This document shows positions 41,738-63,436 of a DNA stretch of 64,000 nucleotides, in pieces. The DNA comes from Nitrospina sp. LS_NOB (lineage in GTDB: Bacteria > Nitrospinota > Nitrospinia > Nitrospinales > VA-1), in contig LFLA01000026.1 in NCBI GenBank assembly GCA_001542995.1, positions 1 through 64,000 of the forward strand, given 5' to 3'. Under the pieces are notes generated by a model. It saw nothing but the letters and a program-made list of their open reading frames with translations. It was not told the DNA's origin and ran no database searches. Both the position numbers and the translations under genes were made by a program. The stretch's first letter is position 1, and the number at the start of each line of letters is the position of its first letter.

Positions 41738-41850
41738 TCAGGTTTGGAACGCCAGTGTGAATATTGGCAAACCATAAAAAAACCCGTATTGAAATAATTT
41801 TCTGTATTATATCTGCACATCCACCAGTCAAAATTCAAAGTATTGTTAGG

Positions 41851-44616
41851 ATGCTGAATTCAAACCAAACCCCTGAACAAAAAGCCCGTGACAACATAGA
41901 CAAAATGTTGGACGAATCAGGCTGGAAAGTTCAGGACAAAAAGAAGATCGATTTTAATGCAGGGCTGGGCATTGCCGTGCGCGAGTACGATACCGATGTA
42001 GGCCCTGCCGATTATGTGCTGTTTGTCGATCAAAAAGCCGTAGGGGTTATTGAAGCAAAAAAGGAAGAAGCCGGGCAGAATATCACCACCGTAGAAGAGC
42101 AATCCGAAAGTTATGCTTCCGCTAAGCTCAAACGGGTCAATAACAAGGAGCCCCTGCCTTTTGTTTATGAGAGCACCGGAGTTATTACCCGGTTTACCGA
42201 TGGCCGGGACCCCAGGCCCCGCTCACGGGAAGTTTTTACCTTCCACCGTCCGGAAACCTTGAATGAATGGTTTTCTCAAAAGGGTTCGTTGCGAGAACGT
42301 TTGCAGACTATTCCATCCCTTAATTACGAAGGGTTGCGGAACTGCCAGATCACAGCAATAGAAAACCTGGAACAATCCTTCAAGGATGATCGTCCGCGTG
42401 CGCTCATTCAAATGGCCACGGGTGCGGGTAAGACCTATACAGCGATAACCACTATTTACCGTCTTTTAAAACACGTCGATGCGAAGCGCGTCCTCTTCCT
42501 GGTCGACACCAAAAATCTTGGCGAGCAGGCTGAACAGGAATTCATGTCCTATGTGCCCAACGATGATAACCGCAAATTTACCGAGCTTTATAACGTTCAG
42601 CGTCTTAAATCGTCCTTTGTTGCCAAAGACAGCCAAGTCTATATCAGCACCATTCAGCGCATGTACTCCCTGTTAAAAGACCAACCGCTTGAAGAAGACG
42701 CCGAAGAGATCAACCCGGCTGAACTGGTCCAGCCTAGAAAACCCATGCCAGTGGTTTATAACGGAAAAATCCCTATCGAGTTTTTCGATTTCATCTTTAT
42801 CGATGAATGCCATCGATCCATCTACAATCTCTGGCGGCAGGTTCTGGAATATTTTGATTCTTGCCTCATAGGTCTGTCAGCCACACCTGATAACCGCACC
42901 TATGGATTTTTCAGGAAAAATGTGGTCAGCGAATATGACCATGAGAAAGCCGTGGCCGATGGCGTGAATGTCGGCAATGAAATCTACACCATTGAAACAG
43001 AAATAACGAAGCAAGGCGGAAAGCTCAAAGCCGACCAGCAAATCCAGAAACGCGAACGCAGGACCCGCAAGAAACGATGGGAACGTCAGGACGAAGATGA
43101 AGTTTATACCTCCAGACAACTCGATAAAGATATTGTCAATCCCGATCAAATCCGTACCGTTCTTAGAACTTTCAGGGACAAGCTCCCGGAAATCTTTCCG
43201 GGGCGCAATGAAGTCCCCAAGACCCTGATTTTTGCCAAAACCGATAGCCACGCCGATGACATTATTCAAATTGCCCGTGAGGAGTTTGCCGAAGGCAATG
43301 AATTTTGTAAAAAAGTAACCTATCGAACCGAGGAGGACCCCAAATTTATTCTAGCGCAATTTCGTAATGATTATTATCCGCGTATCGCCGTCACTGTGGA
43401 TATGATCGCCACCGGAACGGATGTTAAACCGCTGGAATGCCTGCTCTTCATGCGCGATGTGAAAAGCAGAAATTATTTTGAACAGATGAAAGGGCGCGGT
43501 ACACGAATCCTGGAACATGACGACCTGAAAAAAGTTACCCCCTCAGCCACCAGCGCCAAAACCCATTATGTGATTGTCGATGCGATTGGCGTGACAAAAT
43601 CCCTGAAAACCGCCAGCCAGCCGCTCATTACAAAACCTTCAGTCCCTTTAAAGGATTTGGCAATGGGATTAATGATGGGCGTGCGCGATGAAGATACCGT
43701 CAGCTCCCTTGCCGGTCGCCTGGCCCGTCTCAACAATCAACTGGATGAAAAAGACCGGCAGCGTATCAGGGAAAAAGCGGACGGGGTAGAGCTTTCAGAG
43801 ATTGTCGGCAACTTGCTTTCTGCTATAGATGCGGACAGGATCGAAAGCAAAGCCTGTGAAATAGCTGAAGTGTCGGAAGGTTCAGACCCAGGAGACGATA
43901 ACCGTGTTAAAGCACAGGAACAGCTTGTGGGTGAAGCGGCCCAGGTGTTTAATGGTGAGCTGATTGAACTGATCGACACCATCCGGCGAGACAAGGAGCA
44001 AACCCTCGACCATGATACTCTGGATAAAGTCCTGACAGCGGAATGGGATGGGGATGCGATAGAAAACGCGAAAACCATGGTGCAGGATTTTCAGGAATAT
44101 CTCGAAGCCAACCGCGATGAAATTGAAGCGCTGACCCTATTTTATTTACAACCGCAACGGCGGCAGGAAGTCACCTATGACATGATTCGCCAGGTGATGG
44201 ACAAACTCAGAAGCAATAAACCGGGTCTGGCCCCAATGCGTGTGTGGCAGGCCTATGCCCAGTTGGATGAATACAAGGGCGGTCATCCGGTCAGCGAGCT
44301 CACGGCATTGGTGGCACTCATCCGCCGGGCCTGCGGCATTGATAAAACCGTTGCTCCTTACTCTGAAACTGTGCGGAAAAATTTTCAGGACTGGATTATG
44401 AAACACCATAGTGGAGGCGGGGAAAAGTTCAATAAAGAACAAATGGCCTGGTTGTGCATGATCCGCGATCATGTTATCAGTTCCTTCCATATAGAGCGGG
44501 ATGATCTGGATAGGACCCCCTTCGATTCCCGAGGCGGAATGGGAAAAATGTATCAGCTCTTTGGCGACAATATGGACGGCCTGATTGATGAATTGAATGA
44601 GGCGTTGGCAGTGTGA
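41851..44616 (+). CDS. hsdR: Type I restriction enzyme R subunit
   Basis: A 921-residue motor and nuclease subunit. The N-terminal PD-(D/E)xK nuclease has its acidic residues in GPADYVLFVDQKAVGVIEAK (51-70). The SF2 translocase has Walker A MATGAGKTYTA (188-198), DECH (318-321) and SATPDNRTYGFF, then QMKGRGTRIL in the second RecA lobe. The C-terminus is of the EcoEI type. The ATG at 41851 begins normal family sequence; the longer ORF from TTG 41764 adds non-family residues. The stop overlaps hsdS by one base (TGATG), so subunits are translationally coupled. Confidence 0.94.
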   Translation: MLNSNQTPEQKARDNIDKMLDESGWKVQDKKKIDFNAGLGIAVREYDTDVGPADYVLFVDQKAVGVIEAKKEEAGQNITTVEEQSESYASAKLKRVNNKEPLPFVYESTGVITRFTDGRDPRPRSREVFTFHRPETLNEWFSQKGSLRERLQTIPSLNYEGLRNCQITAIENLEQSFKDDRPRALIQMATGAGKTYTAITTIYRLLKHVDAKRVLFLVDTKNLGEQAEQEFMSYVPNDDNRKFTELYNVQRLKSSFVAKDSQVYISTIQRMYSLLKDQPLEEDAEEINPAELVQPRKPMPVVYNGKIPIEFFDFIFIDECHRSIYNLWRQVLEYFDSCLIGLSATPDNRTYGFFRKNVVSEYDHEKAVADGVNVGNEIYTIETEITKQGGKLKADQQIQKRERRTRKKRWERQDEDEVYTSRQLDKDIVNPDQIRTVLRTFRDKLPEIFPGRNEVPKTLIFAKTDSHADDIIQIAREEFAEGNEFCKKVTYRTEEDPKFILAQFRNDYYPRIAVTVDMIATGTDVKPLECLLFMRDVKSRNYFEQMKGRGTRILEHDDLKKVTPSATSAKTHYVIVDAIGVTKSLKTASQPLITKPSVPLKDLAMGLMMGVRDEDTVSSLAGRLARLNNQLDEKDRQRIREKADGVELSEIVGNLLSAIDADRIESKACEIAEVSEGSDPGDDNRVKAQEQLVGEAAQVFNGELIELIDTIRRDKEQTLDHDTLDKVLTAEWDGDAIENAKTMVQDFQEYLEANRDEIEALTLFYLQPQRRQEVTYDMIRQVMDKLRSNKPGLAPMRVWQAYAQLDEYKGGHPVSELTALVALIRRACGIDKTVAPYSETVRKNFQDWIMKHHSGGGEKFNKEQMAWLCMIRDHVISSFHIERDDLDRTPFDSRGGMGKMYQLFGDNMDGLIDELNEALAV

Positions 44617-46163
44617 TGGATAAATTTCTTAGTAAAAAAAATGATCATTGGATTTGGAGCAATTTTGGAACTGTCGCAAATATTGAGGCAGGGAATCCTG
44701 CTCCGCAAGGAGATATATATTTTAATGGTGGCAATTACCCCTTTGTACGGGTGCAAGATATGGGGCGACTTAACGGTGAAATGAGGCTCAGAAAAACAAA
44801 AGATACAGTAAACGCCAAGGGCAAAGAACAATTAAAGCTATTTCCAAAGGGAAGCGTATTATTTACCAAAAGCGGCGCATCAACTTTATTAAATCAAAGG
44901 GCTATTCTTGGTCAAGATAGCTACATAGTTAGTCATATTGGTATAGCAATGCCAAAAGATGGAGTCTTAAGTGAATGGCTTTTTTACTGGTTAAAACTGG
45001 TCGATTTTGCTGATTATGCACATGGGGCGAATATGCCTTCAATGCCTTTATCTAAAGCAAAATTAATTTCCACACCCCTGCCACCCCTAAACGAACAAAA
45101 GCGCATTGTTGCCAAAATTGAGGAGTTGTTTTCTGAGTTGGATAAGGGCATTGAGAGCCTGAAAACCGCACGGGAACAATTAAAAGTCTACCGCCAGGCT
45201 GTGCTCAAACATGCCTTTGAGGGCAAACTCACCGCAGATTGGCGCGAAGCAAACAAAGACAAACTCAAAACCGCCGACCAACTGCTCGACCGAATCAAAC
45301 AGGAACGCGAAGCCCATTACCAGCAACAACTGAAAGAGTGGGAATCCGCCATCAAAAAATGGGAGCAAAATGGAAAAGATGGTAAAAAACCAGCAAAACC
45401 CAAAAAACTTTCTTCTGTAGAGATTTCATCTGAATCAAAATTACAGAAGCTTCCTTATGGTTGGTGTTGGGTAAGTTTTGGTGATTCTAGTGATTGGACA
45501 GGTGGGGGAACACCCTCAAAGTCACGCTCAGAATTTTGGGAAAACGGTGATATTTTGTGGGTTTCTCCAAAAGATATGAAAACCAGAAAAATTAAAGATA
45601 CATTGCAAAAAGTCACAAAGACTGGAGTTGATAATTCATCTGCGAAACTTATAAAATATTTATCAATTTTATTCGTTGTTCGAAGTGGAATATTAAGACG
45701 AATACTTCCCATTGCAATAGCCCCAGCCAACATTACCGTTAACCAAGATATGCAGGCAATAATGCCATATTTCCATGATATTGATTTCTTATATTGGTAC
45801 TCTTTTGCTAATGATTATCAAATTAGGGAACAATGCTCCAAAGATGGCACCACAGTAGAAAGTATTGAAGTTTATGAATTAAAAAAATTCCCGTGCCCTG
45901 TTGCTTCCATTGAAGAGCAAAAGGAAATTGTTAATCTAATTGAGCTGAAAATGTCAGTAATTGATGAATTAGAAGTAACTATTGATGTTGAAATCAAAAA
46001 ATCTGAATCACTGCGTCAGTCTATCTTGAAAAAAGCTTTCTCAGGAATGCTTGTCGAACAGGACCCGAACGATGAACCGGCATCCGTCTTGCTGGAGCGG
46101 ATCAAAGCTGAAAAAGCCAAACTCGTCAAAACCACAAAGAAGAAAAGGAAAAACGCCGCATGA
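44616..46163 (+). CDS. hsdS: Type I restriction-modification specificity subunit S
   Basis: A 515-residue DNA-recognition subunit with two target-recognition domains (opening WIWSNFGTVANIEAGNPAP and LPYGWCWVSFGDSSDWTG). Each is followed by a conserved helix: PPLNEQKRIVAKIEELFSEL with LKTAREQLKVYRQAVLKHAF in the centre, and SIEEQKEIVNLIE with SLRQSILKKAFSG at the end. Both recognition domains are visibly AT-richer than the linking helices, as expected for exchangeable specificity cassettes. The gene overlaps hsdM by four bases (ATGA). The target sequence cannot be read from the protein. Confidence 0.93.
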   Translation: MDKFLSKKNDHWIWSNFGTVANIEAGNPAPQGDIYFNGGNYPFVRVQDMGRLNGEMRLRKTKDTVNAKGKEQLKLFPKGSVLFTKSGASTLLNQRAILGQDSYIVSHIGIAMPKDGVLSEWLFYWLKLVDFADYAHGANMPSMPLSKAKLISTPLPPLNEQKRIVAKIEELFSELDKGIESLKTAREQLKVYRQAVLKHAFEGKLTADWREANKDKLKTADQLLDRIKQEREAHYQQQLKEWESAIKKWEQNGKDGKKPAKPKKLSSVEISSESKLQKLPYGWCWVSFGDSSDWTGGGTPSKSRSEFWENGDILWVSPKDMKTRKIKDTLQKVTKTGVDNSSAKLIKYLSILFVVRSGILRRILPIAIAPANITVNQDMQAIMPYFHDIDFLYWYSFANDYQIREQCSKDGTTVESIEVYELKKFPCPVASIEEQKEIVNLIELKMSVIDELEVTIDVEIKKSESLRQSILKKAFSGMLVEQDPNDEPASVLLERIKAEKAKLVKTTKKKRKNAA

Positions 46164-47650
46164 ACAGCGCATCCATCGTTTCAAAAGTCTGGAGCTTCTG
46201 CACAACCCTCCGCGATGACGGAGTAGGTTATGGTGATTATCTGGAGCAGTTGACCTATCTCATCTTTCTCAAGATGGCGGATGAATATTCCAAACCGCCT
46301 TATAACCGGGATGTGGGCATTCCCAAAAAATATAACTGGCAAAGCCTGAAATCCAGGAAGGGAGCAGAACTGGAAGGGCATTACATCACCTTGCTTCGGG
46401 AACTCGCTACTAAAAAAGGCATGCTTGGCCAGATATTCACCAAATCGCAAAACAAGATTCAGGACCCTGCCAAACTGTTTCGGATAATAGACATGGTGGA
46501 TGACACCGCATGGGTGACTATGGGCGCAGACATCAAGGGCGATATTTATGAAGGCCTGTTGGAAAAAAACGCGGAAGACACCAAATCCGGCGCGGGTCAA
46601 TATTTCACCCCGCGTTCTCTCATCCGCGCCATGGTGGAATGCATGCGGCCCGAACCTCGCAAAACCATTGCAGACCCGGCCTGTGGGACGGGCGGATTTT
46701 TCCTCTCCTCCTATGACTTCATCACCCACCCTGATAACTACAAGCTGGATAAAAAACAGAAGGCATTCTTAAAACACGACACGTTTTCCGGCAATGAGAT
46801 TGTGGCCAACACCCGCCGTCTATGCCTGATGAATATGTTTTTGCACAATATTGGCGAGATCGATGGCGGCACCGCCATTTCGCCCAATGATGCTTTGGTG
46901 GCCGATGCCGGAAACCGGTTTGATGTTGTGTTGACCAATCCGCCTTTTGGTAAAAAGAGCAGTATGAGCTTTACCAATGAAGAAGGAGAGCAGGAAAGGG
47001 ACGATTTGACCTACAACCGTCAGGATTTCTGGGCCACAACCTCAAACAAACAATTAAATTTTGTCCAGCATATTCGCACCATGCTGAAAACGTCCGGCAG
47101 GGCTGCCGTGGTGGTTCCCGATAACGTATTGTTTGAAGGTGGGGCAGGCGAAACCATTCGGCGCAAGTTGCTGGAGAATACGGAGCTCCATACCATTTTG
47201 CGTTTGCCGACCGGCATCTTCTATGCCCAGGGCGTGAAGGCGAATGTCATTTTCTTTGATAACCATGAGGCCAGTCCCAACCCGTGGACGAAGGAAGTCT
47301 GGTATTACGACTACCGTACCAATATCCATCACACCTTGAAAAAGAAAACCATGCGGTTTGAAGATTTGCAGGATTTCATCACCTGCTACAACCCGGAAAA
47401 TCGCCATAAACGAAAAGCCACCTGGAGTGAAAAGAGAAACCCCGAAGGCCGGTGGCGTAAATACAGTTATAAAGAACTCATAGCGCGAGACAAGACCAGT
47501 CTGGATATTTTCTGGCTGAAGGATAAGAGTCTCACCGACCTCGATAATTTACCCGAACCTGACATTCTTGCTCAGGAAATCATCGATAACATTGAAGCAG
47601 GGCTTAACAGCTTCCGGGAAATTGCCGGGTCGTTAGAAGAGAAGGCATAA
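46160..47650 (+). CDS. hsdM: Type I restriction-modification methyltransferase subunit M
   Basis: A 496-residue N6-adenine methyltransferase subunit. The N-terminal helical HsdM_N domain (YGDYLEQLTYLIFLKMADEY) precedes the SAM motif ADPACGTGGFFLSSYD and the catalytic NPPFG. Residues in GAGQYFTPRSLIRAMVE mark the family. With hsdR and hsdS it forms a complete coupled operon in the order R-S-M, less common than R-M-S or M-S-R. No anti-restriction or extra defence gene is inserted. Confidence 0.95.
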   Translation: MNSASIVSKVWSFCTTLRDDGVGYGDYLEQLTYLIFLKMADEYSKPPYNRDVGIPKKYNWQSLKSRKGAELEGHYITLLRELATKKGMLGQIFTKSQNKIQDPAKLFRIIDMVDDTAWVTMGADIKGDIYEGLLEKNAEDTKSGAGQYFTPRSLIRAMVECMRPEPRKTIADPACGTGGFFLSSYDFITHPDNYKLDKKQKAFLKHDTFSGNEIVANTRRLCLMNMFLHNIGEIDGGTAISPNDALVADAGNRFDVVLTNPPFGKKSSMSFTNEEGEQERDDLTYNRQDFWATTSNKQLNFVQHIRTMLKTSGRAAVVVPDNVLFEGGAGETIRRKLLENTELHTILRLPTGIFYAQGVKANVIFFDNHEASPNPWTKEVWYYDYRTNIHHTLKKKTMRFEDLQDFITCYNPENRHKRKATWSEKRNPEGRWRKYSYKELIARDKTSLDIFWLKDKSLTDLDNLPEPDILAQEIIDNIEAGLNSFREIAGSLEEKA

Positions 47651-57952: not shown

Positions 57953-59932
57953 ATGGAAAATATGGCACAATCTGAAGATTTTGCACCTGCACGAGCCGGT
58001 GGGGATGTTAATGGAGAGGCTCTGGACCGGTCCATTGAGCGCTCCCGGGACTTTTTGCTCTCCTGCCAGAACGCTGAGGGTTATTGGGTGGACGAATTGG
58101 AGGCCAATGTTACCATTTCGGCCGAATTTATTTTCTTCATGCATTTCACCGACCGGCTGGACCCTGTCAAACAAGACAAGATCGTAAAATATTTACTGCA
58201 TCATCAAAGGGAGGATGGCAGTTGGCCGCTTTTTTATGGTGGCCTGTGCGACATTAACTCGACGGTTGAGTCCTATATGGCTCTTAAAATGGCCGGCCTG
58301 CCCGCCGACCGGGAAGAGATGGCGCGAGCCCGTCAGGCGATTTTTGCCAACGGGGGTATTAAAAAAACCCGGGTCTTCACAAAAATGTTCCTCGCCATGT
58401 TCGGTCAGGTTTCCTGGGACGACTGCCCAGCGATGCCGGTAGAGATTATTTTGTTGCCCAACTGGTTTCTTATTAATATCTATGAGATTTCGAGCTGGTC
58501 GCGGGGCACGGTGGTTCCCCTTTCTATTGTGCGTTCCTTCGAACCGGTTTATGAGCTTCCGGAAGGACGGGACGTTCAGGAATTGTTCACCAAAAAAGAT
58601 CTGGATCTGGATTTCAAACCCAACGGCCTGCCTTTCACCAGTTGGAGAAACACGTTTATATATCTCGATCGCTTTATCAAGGCTATCGGCAAGTTCCCCT
58701 TTAAACCTCTGCGCAAAAAAGCGCTTAAAAAAGTCGAGGAATGGACGCTGGAGCACCAGGAAGACGAGGGTGACTTTGGCGGTATTCAACCGGCCATGTT
58801 CAATGCCCTTTTAGCGTTGTACCTTTTAGGCTACGCCGAAGACCATCCCGCGTGTGTGAAAGGAATGGAAGCGGTGGACCGCTTCATGCTGGAAAAAGAC
58901 GGGCGGCTCTGGATGCAGCCCTGCGTCTCGCCTTTGTGGGACACGGCCATCTGCGCCAACGCCTTGTTGGATTCGGGACTGCCACCCGACCACCCGGCCC
59001 TGGTGAAAGCCGGTGAGTGGATCATTGGCAAACAGGTGATCAAGCGTGGCGACTGGCAGGTGAAGAATCCGACAGTGGAGCCGGGAGGTTGGGCGTTTGA
59101 GTTTTATAATGAACTGTATCCGGACACCGATGACACGGCAGAGATTTTGCTTTTCCTCGATCGGATCGAGGTCACCGACAACCGCTGGAAGTTGAGCGAA
59201 TGCCAGCGGGCGATGGACTGGTTGTTGAGCATGCAGAGTAAAAGCGGTGGATGGGGAGCCTTCGATGTGGATAACGATAGGGAGGTTCTCAACGAAGTTC
59301 CTTTTGCCGACCATAAGGCGTTGCTGGATCCTGCAACGGTGGATGTGACGAGCCGGATTCTTTGGATGCTGGCAAAATGGGGATTTAAAAAACAGCACCC
59401 GCAGGTTCAACGGGCCATCAAGTTTATCAAAGACCGTCAGGAAGTGGATGGTTGCTGGTATGGCCGATGGGGAGTGAATTATATTTATGGAACGTTTTTA
59501 GCCTTGAACGGTTTGCGTGCCATCGGTGAGGACATGAAGGATAGGTTCAGCCGGCAAGCCGTCCTCTGGTTGGAAACTCACCAAAATGAAGATGGAGGTT
59601 GGGGTGAAACCTGCCAAAGTTATACAGAGCCGAGCTTGCGGGGTCGGGGTCAAAGCACTGCCTCACAAACCGCCTGGGCCTTGCTGGGGCTCATTGCCGC
59701 CGGTGAGGAAAAAAATTCGGTTGTAGAACGCGGCGTTCACTATTTGATCGAAACGCAAAAAGATTCAGGGGAATTTTCAGGAAGCTGGTGGGAGGATGAG
59801 TTCACCGGTACTGGGTTTCCCATCCATTTCTTCATCAAATACCATATGTATCAGCATTTCTTCCCGCTGATGGCTTTGTCCCGCTACCGGCACCAGCGTG
59901 ACGCTGGCCGGTCAGTGACCAGTGGTAGATAG
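57953..59932 (+). CDS. shc: Squalene-hopene cyclase
   Basis: A 659-residue monotopic membrane enzyme cyclising squalene to hopene, the first committed step to hopanoids. The catalytic acid motif DTDDTAE is at about residue 391. Several QW repeats are clear: QREDGSWPLFYGG, QSKSGGWGAFDVDN, QEVDGCWYGRWGVNYIYGTF and QNEDGGWGETCQSY. The normal family end is near SRYRH; the last dozen residues (QRDAGRSVTSGR) are encoded by a palindromic repeat. No other hopanoid gene is adjacent. Confidence 0.95.
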   Translation: MENMAQSEDFAPARAGGDVNGEALDRSIERSRDFLLSCQNAEGYWVDELEANVTISAEFIFFMHFTDRLDPVKQDKIVKYLLHHQREDGSWPLFYGGLCDINSTVESYMALKMAGLPADREEMARARQAIFANGGIKKTRVFTKMFLAMFGQVSWDDCPAMPVEIILLPNWFLINIYEISSWSRGTVVPLSIVRSFEPVYELPEGRDVQELFTKKDLDLDFKPNGLPFTSWRNTFIYLDRFIKAIGKFPFKPLRKKALKKVEEWTLEHQEDEGDFGGIQPAMFNALLALYLLGYAEDHPACVKGMEAVDRFMLEKDGRLWMQPCVSPLWDTAICANALLDSGLPPDHPALVKAGEWIIGKQVIKRGDWQVKNPTVEPGGWAFEFYNELYPDTDDTAEILLFLDRIEVTDNRWKLSECQRAMDWLLSMQSKSGGWGAFDVDNDREVLNEVPFADHKALLDPATVDVTSRILWMLAKWGFKKQHPQVQRAIKFIKDRQEVDGCWYGRWGVNYIYGTFLALNGLRAIGEDMKDRFSRQAVLWLETHQNEDGGWGETCQSYTEPSLRGRGQSTASQTAWALLGLIAAGEEKNSVVERGVHYLIETQKDSGEFSGSWWEDEFTGTGFPIHFFIKYHMYQHFFPLMALSRYRHQRDAGRSVTSGR

Positions 59933-60010
59933 CAATATAGCTTATCAAGCCGAGAACGCGTTTGCACGCAGCAAAAAGACATTGCAATTTGCCTCCCCTG
60001 CTGGTGGAAG
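59893..60010. repeat. Palindrome-capped repeat overlapping the shc 3' end
   Basis: CCAGCGTGACGCTGG (59893-59907) is inside the shc coding region, followed by core pieces ATAGCAATATAGCTTATC, AGCCGAGAACGCG and ACATTGCAATTTGCC. Confidence 0.68.
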
Positions 60011-60098
60011 GAGCAGGTCAGGAGGTTGCAGCCCCCCAACCGACGTGTGTGACCACGCCACGGATAAACCGCTACTCCAGCGAACAACGAGTTTATCA

Positions 60099-60251
60099 GT
60101 GGAATTGGAAAAAATCTATGAAGTCCGGTGCCGGTTTTGTGGCCGTCTTCTGTTCAACGTTAAAGAGTTTTTAAACACCCTTTTGATGTCATTTAAAGAG
60201 CATTTAATTGAAGTGAAATGCCAACGATGCAAGCAGATCAACAAACTATAA
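60099..60251 (+). CDS. Com-like small zinc-binding protein (phage-Mu Com family)
   Basis: About 50 residues from a GTG at 60099, inside a longer ORF whose first part is repeat sequence. It has two CxxC pairs: EVRCRFCGRLLFN and IEVKCQRCKQINKL. This matches Mu Com, a zinc-finger RNA-binding protein that activates translation of the mom DNA-modification gene. The next gene is a DNA adenine methylase remnant rather than mom, so the pair looks like debris of a phage modification cassette. The start is uncertain because no good ribosome binding site is seen. Confidence 0.68.
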   Translation: MELEKIYEVRCRFCGRLLFNVKEFLNTLLMSFKEHLIEVKCQRCKQINKL

Positions 60252-60256
60252 ATCGA

Positions 60257-60829
60257 ATGCCTCTGAGCATGAAAAAGCAGAGGTGTTTTCTCAGTTGGGT
60301 CGGAGGCAAGTCTCGGCTTGCGCCGGTGATCGTCAAACAATTTCCGGAACACAAAACTTACGTCGAGGTGTTCGGTGGTGCGGCATGGGTTTTATTCCGC
60401 AAAGAACCGTCGCATGTTGAGGTCTATAACGACATCAACGGGGACCTGGCTAATCTTTTCCGGGTGGTGAAGCACCGACCATCGGCATTGGTGGAACGGC
60501 TAAGCCTGATCCTGTATTCGCGTGAGAGCTATAAAGAGTTTGTTGGTGAGTGGAAAGAAAGACCAACTGACGAGGTGGACCGAGCTGCGAGTTTTATTTA
60601 TGTGGTTCGATCAGCATTCGGCGCAAAGCCAGCCGGTGGTTGGGCGTATGGCAAGACTTCTAAGCCAAGGACGGTGGGTCCGACCTTGATTTTTTAAAAG
60701 AAGTTCAGGAGAGGTCGAGAGCGGTATATATTGATGGTCAGTCATGGGAGAAGGTGATCGCGGCTTCCGGGTGCGCTCGACCGGGCCTATACATTATTCT
60801 GATAACAATAAACGATCCTCCGCCCGCAT
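60257..60829 (+). pseudogene. D12-class DNA adenine methylase (Dam-like), frameshifted and truncated
   Basis: The open part has FLSWVGGKSRLAPVIVKQFP (SAM motif), YVEVFGGAAWVLFRK and NDINGDLANLFRVVKHRP, the first half of a Dam-family N6-adenine methyltransferase. It stops at 60697. In another frame the sequence continues DFLKEVQERSRAVYIDGQSW, family-like, and then loses similarity before any DPPY catalytic motif. The gene is therefore inactive. Its start (60257 or 60269) lies just after the Com-like gene. Confidence 0.82.
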
Positions 60830-60892
60830 GAAAAAAGAACTTCTCATAAGGAATTTTTAGTAACAAATTCTATTCGTAACAGGGGATATCTA

Positions 60893-62992
60893 ATGTCCAA
60901 AGCAAAAGGAACAAATATATCGATTTCTATGCATGGTCATGGTCTCCAGGAGGTGTGCAACTTTATTGCCATTGCCAAGACAAAAAGCCATTCTGAAACC
61001 CTTCGGGAATTGATCTTAACCGCCATATTCACATTTCCGGATGAGAAAATATCAAATATTGAGGAAGTTGAAAAACTTCTTAAGACCATGTTTTCCATCA
61101 AAGACCCTAATCACCTGATTAGAGAATTGCTGGATCAGTTAATATCCGAGGGTCAGATTCAACAACCATTAGGAATAAATTACGTCCTCTCAGTTGAAGC
61201 CAGAAGTAAAATCAAAGCACGAGTTGATGATGCCTTCCGACTACAAAAGCGTGTAAAAAATCAATGGCTGGAAGAAATTGCAAGACAATTTCCTGATCTC
61301 AACACAGACTTAGCATGGAGTGGACTTTATGAGTATCTTGCAAATGCATTTCTCCAGCATGGAATGCAGGTGGCTCTCTTCCTTGATCCGTCCGTTGAAC
61401 TACCAACAGTATATGGTGCAAGTCTATCAGCTCTGCTCAACCAGGTAGTACAGAATAAATTCGACTCAACTCATCAGGAGAATGCCAAGAATGCGATCTC
61501 TGATTTTTTTGGAACCATTGCCAATAATCCCGAAAGGGCAAAGTTTGTCGCCGAATGTGCTGATGGTGCCGGCAACTTTTATTCCTTGGCAGTTTCCACT
61601 GAAATAGCGGGCCGTTTCAGGGATAAACTTAATCCGCTTATCCTGTTCTGCGATACCAATGTTCTTTTCGGAATTCTTGATTTGCATGTACATCCCCTTG
61701 CGGATGTTTCAAATGAACTGGTGGATGCTATTGCTAAGCATAAAATACCTATAAAGTTGCGATATCATGAGAATACGCTTGCTGAACTCTGTTCTTCGAT
61801 CGATCATCATGGAGAAATTCTACGTCAAAATAAATGGACACGGGCAATAAGTCGAGCAGCTACCAAGTCCCGCCTTATATCAGGGCTTGAAAAAAAATAT
61901 CACCAGAAAAACTCTGAAACTGCGTTAGAAGTTGATGAATTTTTGCAACCTTTTAAACATGTGGATGCGCTCCTTAATGAGCGTAAGTTAGTAATTTACC
62001 GGTCTGAGGAAAGATTAAAAGAACGTGCCACACTTGAAGCTGATTACAAGAAATTTTTGAAGCGTATCAATAGAGAAAAGGATCACTATTTGGTAGCTCA
62101 CGATGTTATAGTACTTGATTGTGTGCATTTGCTTAAAAGGAATGCCACCTCTACGCTTGATTCAGGTGCACTTTTCGTAACATGCGACCATTTATTGTAC
62201 CGATTTGACAGCGAGATAAGTCGAAAGAAGAAGACCCATGCATCCGTTGTAATGCCGAATGTGTTATTGCAAATCCTAAGACCCTTTATCCCTTCCAGCC
62301 AAAACTTCAATACGTCATTCGCTGAAACCTTTGCTATTCCCGAGTTTAGAACCATTGGAAGTGGCGCAGATAAAGCTTGCTTGAAAATGCTAAGCCTCCT
62401 CAATGCATACAAGGATATGACTGAAGACGTGGCGGTCAGGATGCTTACGAACGATATGCTGATAGATAACCTGCGCGGAATCGAAAATAACAAAACTTTC
62501 CAGGCAGAAGTAGATTCAGCAATAGCGGCTGACTATCAGAATCTCATTGAAGAGGTTGCCGAAGTTACAAAAGAAAAGGAGCAAGCCAATAAAAAATTTG
62601 AAGAACAGGTGCAATTATCAGAGTTAGAAGCCGCCAAGGCGCAAAAAGCACTAGAATCTGAAAGAGAAACCCAGGAAACGACTAAAAAATTATCTGAGGA
62701 ATTTACTGATCTGCGGAAAAAGAATCTTCTTCAAAAGAAAATATTTAGCACCATAGGTGCCATTCTAGTTAACATCATCCTCTTTCTATTTATCCATAAT
62801 ATTTGGCGCTGGGATTGGTTATTGAACCATCCCGAAAGTTATGGGTTACAGGTGGCTATTCACATAACAGTGTTATTTGGCATTGTAGGTTTTTTCGTGA
62901 ATTCTTGGAGAAAAGTCGTTTGGAGTATTACTTTTCTTGGGGCTGTGGTAATTGGAGTTATGCAGATGCTAGGTGGTCCAGAGAACCAATAA
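60893..62992 (+). CDS. PIN-like nuclease domain protein with coiled coil and C-terminal membrane segments
   Basis: A 699-residue protein I cannot place in a named family. Residues 30-115 look like a helical, possibly winged-helix region. A PIN-like domain is suggested by LILFCDTNVLFGIL (Asp254-Thr-Asn), an acidic residue in LAEL (about 298), HDVIVLDCVHLL (404-413) and the closing LFVTCDHLLYRFD (Asp432, Asp439), in the order of PIN active-site acids. A coiled coil follows (about 545-615), then three hydrophobic segments (about 618-636, 653-669, 674-691) that would anchor it in the inner membrane with the nuclease inside. There is no signal peptide. It stands alone after a phage-type remnant, as effectors of abortive infection often do; that role is inference. 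Confidence 0.62.
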   Translation: MSKAKGTNISISMHGHGLQEVCNFIAIAKTKSHSETLRELILTAIFTFPDEKISNIEEVEKLLKTMFSIKDPNHLIRELLDQLISEGQIQQPLGINYVLSVEARSKIKARVDDAFRLQKRVKNQWLEEIARQFPDLNTDLAWSGLYEYLANAFLQHGMQVALFLDPSVELPTVYGASLSALLNQVVQNKFDSTHQENAKNAISDFFGTIANNPERAKFVAECADGAGNFYSLAVSTEIAGRFRDKLNPLILFCDTNVLFGILDLHVHPLADVSNELVDAIAKHKIPIKLRYHENTLAELCSSIDHHGEILRQNKWTRAISRAATKSRLISGLEKKYHQKNSETALEVDEFLQPFKHVDALLNERKLVIYRSEERLKERATLEADYKKFLKRINREKDHYLVAHDVIVLDCVHLLKRNATSTLDSGALFVTCDHLLYRFDSEISRKKKTHASVVMPNVLLQILRPFIPSSQNFNTSFAETFAIPEFRTIGSGADKACLKMLSLLNAYKDMTEDVAVRMLTNDMLIDNLRGIENNKTFQAEVDSAIAADYQNLIEEVAEVTKEKEQANKKFEEQVQLSELEAAKAQKALESERETQETTKKLSEEFTDLRKKNLLQKKIFSTIGAILVNIILFLFIHNIWRWDWLLNHPESYGLQVAIHITVLFGIVGFFVNSWRKVVWSITFLGAVVIGVMQMLGGPENQ

Positions 62993-63271
62993 AAGATGAT
63001 CCTAAATGAAGGGGTCGGCTCCACTATTGACTGTAAATGACGGTGAGGTTAGAAAGAACTGGTAGTTTAAAGCTTTTAGAGATAGAGCTACATTTTGGGT
63101 TTTCAAATTATAATTGAATGACCGCTTTTGGCCGATAACCGACATTGGTCCCTCCTTTAATGGCCAGATAGAGTAATACCGGGTTACATCCTTACGTCAC
63201 AGAATTGACGCATTTCCGGGATATGGGGTTTTGCATCTGAGGTGTCTTTTTTTTGCAAATGAGCTGCGCGG
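62993..63271. other. Intergenic, no feature recognised
   Basis: AT-rich sequence with no ORF, repeat cap or hairpin-T-run terminator that I can support. It ends at the stop of the small minus-strand ORF. Confidence 0.4.
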
Positions 63272-63436
63272 TTACATCAAAGCTTGTATCAGGTCTTCAG
63301 ATTTATCTTTGTAGTAGTTGGAGTCCGTCTGCGTTCTAAATACCTTGTCCCGGAACTGTGATGGACCCATTTTCACTTCACGACCGGAAATGAAAACAGA
63401 AATAATCAGTAAATAAAAGAATGTTCGTGTGTTCAT
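63272..63436 (-). CDS. Small ORF, 54 residues, with hydrophobic leader
   Basis: Below the ORF-track size limit. It reads MNTRTFFYLLIISVFISGREV followed by a polar tail containing YYKDKSEDLIQALM. AAAGG lies ten bases before the ATG. The leader resembles a lipoprotein signal peptide, but the residue after ISG is Arg rather than the lipobox Cys, so it may be a secreted peptide, a signal-anchored microprotein or a decayed lipoprotein gene. Coding status is uncertain. Confidence 0.35.
   Translation of the reverse strand: MNTRTFFYLLIISVFISGREVKMGPSQFRDKVFRTQTDSNYYKDKSEDLIQALM

Follow-up and report, generated by a model that had tools for sequence, protein, structure and literature searches.

A membrane-anchored PIN-fold protein family as a candidate backup effector of DNA-methylation-based restriction systems

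The stretch of DNA analysed here (the window) comprises the first 64,000 nucleotides of contig LFLA01000026.1 from Nitrospina sp. LS_NOB (assembly GCA_001542995.1), and towards its end lies a gene at 60893-62992 on the forward strand that encodes a protein of 699 amino acids. The protein belongs to an accessory family for which Pfam, NCBIfam and PADLOC hold no curated model, and it is probably a membrane-anchored PIN-fold nuclease that provides restriction systems based on DNA methylation with a backup effector, in the manner of the anticodon nuclease PrrC. Restriction enzymes are frequently blocked by phages, to which cells appear to reply with backup weapons carried in the same operons; this idea can be tested in a defined way with an unnamed membrane-tied nuclease family that occurs alongside several methylation-based systems.

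The open reading frame (ORF) starts with ATG and has no internal stops in the ORF listing and translation, the opposite strand being closed by many stops, and its position, strand and length are exactly those given in the first-pass annotation. Homologues in other phyla are 38-55% identical across most of their length, thus neither the ORF nor its layout can be put down to chance. That annotation had described a helical N-terminus, a PIN-like centre, a coiled coil and three C-terminal membrane segments, a layout that agrees with both the hydropathy profile and an AlphaFold2 model (mean predicted local distance difference test score, pLDDT, 81.8 for the full length), in which the N-terminus is helical, the centre alpha/beta and residues 533-637 one continuous helix. 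All features lie on the forward strand, with a winged-helix-like and helical region preceding the predicted PIN core (residues ~245-456, 61625-62260), which is followed by the coiled coil (residues ~534-610, 62492-62722), where D, E, K, R, Q and N make up 53% of residues and proline is absent, and by three predicted membrane helices (residues 612-640, 649-672 and 672-690, 62726-62962), which are hydropathy peaks as well as helices in the model. Hydrophobic C-terminal segments are common to 26 of the 28 aligned members. The N-terminal assignment (residues ~33-100, 60989-61192) is suggestive, with the full-length model, and only that model, matching winged-helix regulators of the GntR, PadR and MarR types in Foldseek; together with sub-threshold linker-histone matches over residues 36-94 and matches to histone H1/H5 in the PDB over profile positions 30-89, this suggests that the N-terminus is winged-helix-like.

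The PIN fold predicted for residues ~245-456 is also seen in a separate model of the core, which has a mean pLDDT of 92.5. When the core model was compared with the PDB by Foldseek the top matches were almost all PIN proteins (Pfu-367848, AF1683, FitB, VapC and protein-only RNase P), with probabilities of up to 1.00, a best E-value of 2.6e-3 and a template modelling score to the target of up to ~0.6; a library of viral folds returned one PIN-like phage protein and little besides. The invariant columns of the 28-row alignment are G157, F252, D254, T255, N256, F259, E298, H403, D404, D432 and P455, and the four acids among them, D254 (codon 61652-61654), E298 (61784-61786), D404 (62102-62104) and D432 (62186-62188), are therefore identical in 28/28 homologues. 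In the model D254 follows strand 1, E298 is in the helix after strand 2, D404 is in the helix that precedes the fourth strand and D432 stands directly past that strand, a placement which amounts to the PIN arrangement. PIN-superfamily sites usually have three to four acids, as supplied here by these four, and the core is a putative metal-dependent nuclease. The ordered acids listed at first pass stand as regards these residues and, with some latitude, position 439 (D in 23 members, E in 5), but not Asp409, which is D in only 10 of 28 and, judging by the alignment, is not catalytic. The window protein shares its catalytic fold and acid arrangement with the VapC and FitB toxins, but is about five times longer, is only 10-15% identical, has a membrane anchor and has no antitoxin gene, there being no conserved small partner gene beside the PIN gene in the neighbourhoods that were read.

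Single-sequence queries gave nothing useful in Pfam, PADLOC, PDB sequences, plasmids, phages or genome contigs, and it was an alignment of three members from two distant genomes that opened the family. This alignment retrieved 29 loci among the collected genomes and three on viral contigs, with one more locus found later in the same class. Two chance matches, a SelB-like protein (L004) and a low-complexity sequence (L043), were removed, and about 32 distinct relatives were left once duplicates had been taken out, some of them split, truncated or cut by contig ends. They span at least 10 phyla, including Nitrospinota, Planctomycetota, Acidobacteriota, Thermodesulfobacteriota, Nitrospirota, Myxococcota, Bacteroidota, Chloroflexota, Bacillota and Actinomycetota. 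A full-length copy is present in none of 15 congeners, and convincing copies occur in 2 of 77 genomes of the class (Nitrospina sp. LS_NOB being one of the two) and in 2 of 395 genomes of another phylum. The distribution of the family is thus patchy and horizontal, that of an accessory rather than a core gene.

The protein falls outside every family in Pfam, NCBIfam and PADLOC. The best PADLOC E-value is 0.1 for the window protein and 6e-5 for other members, the latter apparently coiled-coil matches, and sub-threshold matches to LMBR1, MCU, Piezo, LmuB, LeoBC and SMC-like proteins were set aside as owing to coiled-coil or membrane segments. PHROG 13276, a 301-residue model with no function assigned, weakly matches part of the window PIN core (E 1e-5) and matches three members. 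The architecture of winged helix-turn-helix, PIN, coiled coil and three transmembrane helices was not recognised as a family in the published literature examined, a search that did not extend to preprints and supplements. The embedded backup nuclease is as a kind already known, and the family may already be among the PIN nucleases listed in the supplements of PMC12839542.

It is the company kept by the relatives that ties the family to restriction. Every locus was searched by tblastn with restriction genes, and the neighbours were scanned with Pfam and PADLOC; type I restriction-modification genes were found beside eight relatives, the PIN gene often lying between hsdS and hsdR. The gene orders are hsdM-DUF1016-hsdS-PIN-hsdR (L008), hsdM-hsdS-PIN with zero gap between hsdS and PIN (L014), hsdM-hsdS-PIN-hsdR (L016), hsdS-phosphatase-PIN-hsdR (L017), hsdS-PIN (L018), hsdR-hsdM-hsdS-x-PIN-GmrSD (L019), hsdM-hsdS-kinase-PIN-hsdR (L023) and hsdR-PIN (L029). 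In L008 the PIN start overlaps the hsdS stop (TAATG) and hsdR follows 18 nucleotides past the PIN gene. Eight such neighbours among 32 loci correspond to a P of about 3e-9 at a background of 1.2%, which is a generous assumption rather than a measurement. An hsdS-like gene upstream of the PIN gene in L015 was recognised by reading only and went undetected by tblastn with hsd queries, therefore it was not counted.

The association is not limited to type I systems. In two Hma loci centred on DUF499 (L009 and L010) the PIN gene is flanked by the HmaA helicase and the HmaB methylase, with HmaC downstream, and in L009 its stop overlaps the HmaB start. A type IIG-like methyltransferase is directly upstream of the PIN gene in L011 and L034; an assignment of that in L011 to BREX PglX was dropped, PADLOC favouring type IIG/DrmMI, and an SspC/BrxC-like ATPase lies downstream. 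GmrSD genes are within about 1 kb of L019, L024 and L030. That the ends of the PIN gene overlap hsdS in L008 and HmaB in L009, and that the gene is repeatedly placed in operons, suggests functional coupling and not mere proximity. Mobile elements are the other recurrent setting: L005 is cargo of a Mu-like prophage, in which it lies on the opposite strand with Mor on one side and the holin on the other and with GemA, MuA and a Mu portal nearby, phage-type integrases are near L020 and L021, and a serine recombinase is carried on the viral contigs L037 and L038. The first-pass reading of the gene as a candidate membrane-anchored PIN-like defence nuclease is supported, the predicted structure being a PIN fold and the homologues being found in accessory contexts enriched for restriction loci. 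The term stand-alone that it used holds for the window copy only, since methyltransferase-based systems often have a relative embedded in them, and the membrane sensor that would trigger RNA cleavage is hypothetical as to both trigger and substrate.

The window copy itself seems to have arrived with foreign DNA. Of ten congener stretches compared, nine align with the window upstream, through the end of a squalene-hopene cyclase gene to about 59889-59916, whilst the tenth stops short of that gene; downstream the alignment restarts at 63277 in eight and at 63299-63300 in two. Between these flanks eight congeners have an unrelated interval of 446-596 bp with a core of ~400 bp that is 78-85% identical to that of congener G003 (L073), where the window has 3384 bases (~3.3 kb) with only a few short stretches that match congeners. 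The conserved ~400-bp block that follows the cyclase gene in congeners is missing from the window, with the longer segment in its place. The PIN gene has a G+C content of 40.4%, whereas the cyclase gene has 52.1% and the stretch at 48-57.9 kb has 47.3%. Because the flanks align and the interval does not, the PIN gene is low in G+C and a truncated methyltransferase gene lies beside it, the best reading of the interval 59893-63276, from sequence comparison, is an acquired segment specific to this strain. That methyltransferase is a D12-class adenine methyltransferase (Dam) fragment at 60218-60697 on the forward strand (PF02086, E 1.2e-16, profile positions 1-118 of 253), its frame ending at 60697; across 73-84% of its length the fragment shares 44-53% identity with phage Dam proteins. 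Of the phage-type debris described at first pass Dam is thus borne out, but Com is unconfirmed, with no Pfam family and no phage record matched; the peptide in question, at 60117-60248 upstream of the Dam fragment, is short and zinc-ribbon-like (C-x2-C...C-x2-C) and resembles Mu Com by eye only.

As to how the protein might work, the C-terminal helices would tether it to the inner membrane, whilst the coiled coil and the winged-helix and helical regions would join PIN subunits and hold them latent. Infection, or restriction machinery that has been inhibited, would release the nuclease, which would then cut RNA, most likely tRNA or mRNA, and growth would stop ahead of phage release. The nuclease is probably an RNase. 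In Nitrospina sp. LS_NOB it may act alone or with the type I systems of the genome, including the one 13 kb upstream.

The role of a latent, membrane-tethered RNase appears the most likely one because of several precedents. In PrrC an ABC ATPase is joined to a HEPN-type nuclease, and PrrC is not known to have a membrane anchor. The window family is unlike PrrC in being PIN-fold and membrane-anchored and in occurring also with Hma and type IIG-like methyltransferases, and no ATPase family is among its Pfam matches, the ABC ATPase domain that characterises PrrC and RloC thus being absent. The likeness is one of setting, as PrrC is a latent anticodon nuclease of a type I operon (EcoprrI, type IC) that is released on infection by phage T4, its gene is embedded in the hsd operon, and it is proposed to be a latent backup for when restriction is challenged (PMC3874165). 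The site flanked by hsdS and hsdR has been described as a possible hotspot at which defence systems insert (PMC12255303). The main text on BREX and BREX-related (Hma) loci describes a second layer of backup nucleases, with PIN endoRNases among the rarer ones (PMC12839542); these are alike in being PIN nucleases within or beside methylation-based systems, and two members of the window family are in Hma loci, but that main text names neither the architecture found here nor a type I restriction-modification setting. DS-3 is a validated single-protein PIN defence system without an antitoxin, and in both DS-3 and DS-5 the PIN nuclease is required for phage defence (PMC13092281); by contrast the PIN core of the window family sits mid-chain in one protein, a comparison made by description and not by sequence.

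A number of points weigh against a backup RNase of restriction systems. Whilst many relatives are encoded on the same strand as core restriction genes, either among them or immediately next to them, the window copy stands by itself outside any restriction operon: the nearest hsd genes are a complete operon of overlapping genes in the order hsdR-hsdS-hsdM (41764-47650), 13.2 kb upstream of the PIN gene with housekeeping genes in between, and two further HsdM genes are elsewhere in the genome (HsdM_N on contigs C1 and C3). A scan for sigma-70-type sites found no promoter-like site within 60600-63300. Many relatives have no obvious restriction neighbour in the available stretch, and two divergent members, L033 and L035, lack membrane segments by hydropathy. 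PIN folds are able to cut DNA too, and the modest Foldseek E-values to solved structures mean that the match does not reveal the substrate. As regards solitude, the closest kin of the window copy in the tree are L008 (type I), L009 and L010 (Hma), L012 and L011, so that the solitary gene is nested among mostly embedded copies.

The main rival, which we consider unlikely, is a membrane-localised nuclease that cuts phage or plasmid DNA as it comes in at the inner membrane, with guidance or licence from the methyltransferase or specificity subunits encoded next to it; the protein would then add a subunit to restriction and would not be a suicidal RNase. Flap-type DNA nucleases are among the members of the PIN superfamily, and the winged-helix-like N-terminus and the association with systems that discriminate methylation would both suit such a role, but the best solved matches (VapC, FitB and protein-only RNase P) are RNases or putative RNases. 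Restriction operons moreover hold a DNA nuclease already, and the extra nuclease embedded in one of them, PrrC, attacks tRNA (PMC3874165).

Less likely again is an autonomous single-gene abortive-infection effector whose C-terminal helices sense membrane disturbance and activate the PIN core, with restriction neighbours being only the usual company of a defence island. The solitary copies (window, L013, L026 and L044), the prophage cargo in L005 and the validated DS-3 (PMC13092281) speak for it, but the codon overlaps with hsdS and HmaB and the recurrent operon placement do not fit. A membrane enzyme that processes RNA for housekeeping or regulation, RNase Y-like and without a role in defence, is very improbable: membrane-anchored RNases exist, and L013 and L026 are among ordinary genes, but the very patchy distribution with no full-length copy in congeners, the acquired segment and the restriction and prophage contexts all run counter to it.

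A wider proposal, which we offer tentatively and think rather doubtful, is that one membrane-anchored PIN family would be a shared plug-in effector of several unrelated methylation-based immune systems (type I, Hma/BREX-related, type IIG-like and GmrSD), sensing some cue that all of them share, for instance a restriction complex that has been inhibited or DNA at the membrane that lacks modification, and acting by itself as well when carried on prophages or islands. For testing the backup role the family provides acidic residues named from the alignment, complete operons of the L008 type and a solitary natural copy for comparison. As the family is absent from the curated defence library searched, such loci would be only partly annotated.

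Some further features of the relatives are recorded here. A small phosphatase-like gene (L017:7441-7935) and a protein kinase gene (L023:6340-7809) each separate hsdS from the PIN gene in their loci, and a 496-residue protein without a Pfam match (L019:6449-7939) has hsdS on one side and the PIN gene on the other. Directly upstream of the same-class homologue in L044, in a polysaccharide region, is a JAB-domain-like protein (L044:6071-6604; Prok-JAB, E 2.4e-4, below the curated cut-off). The Cytophagales homologue (L035:36-2555) has in place of membrane segments a C-terminal extension, which has no Pfam match and in which a D...E-A-K stretch resembles, by eye only, a PD-(D/E)XK nuclease.
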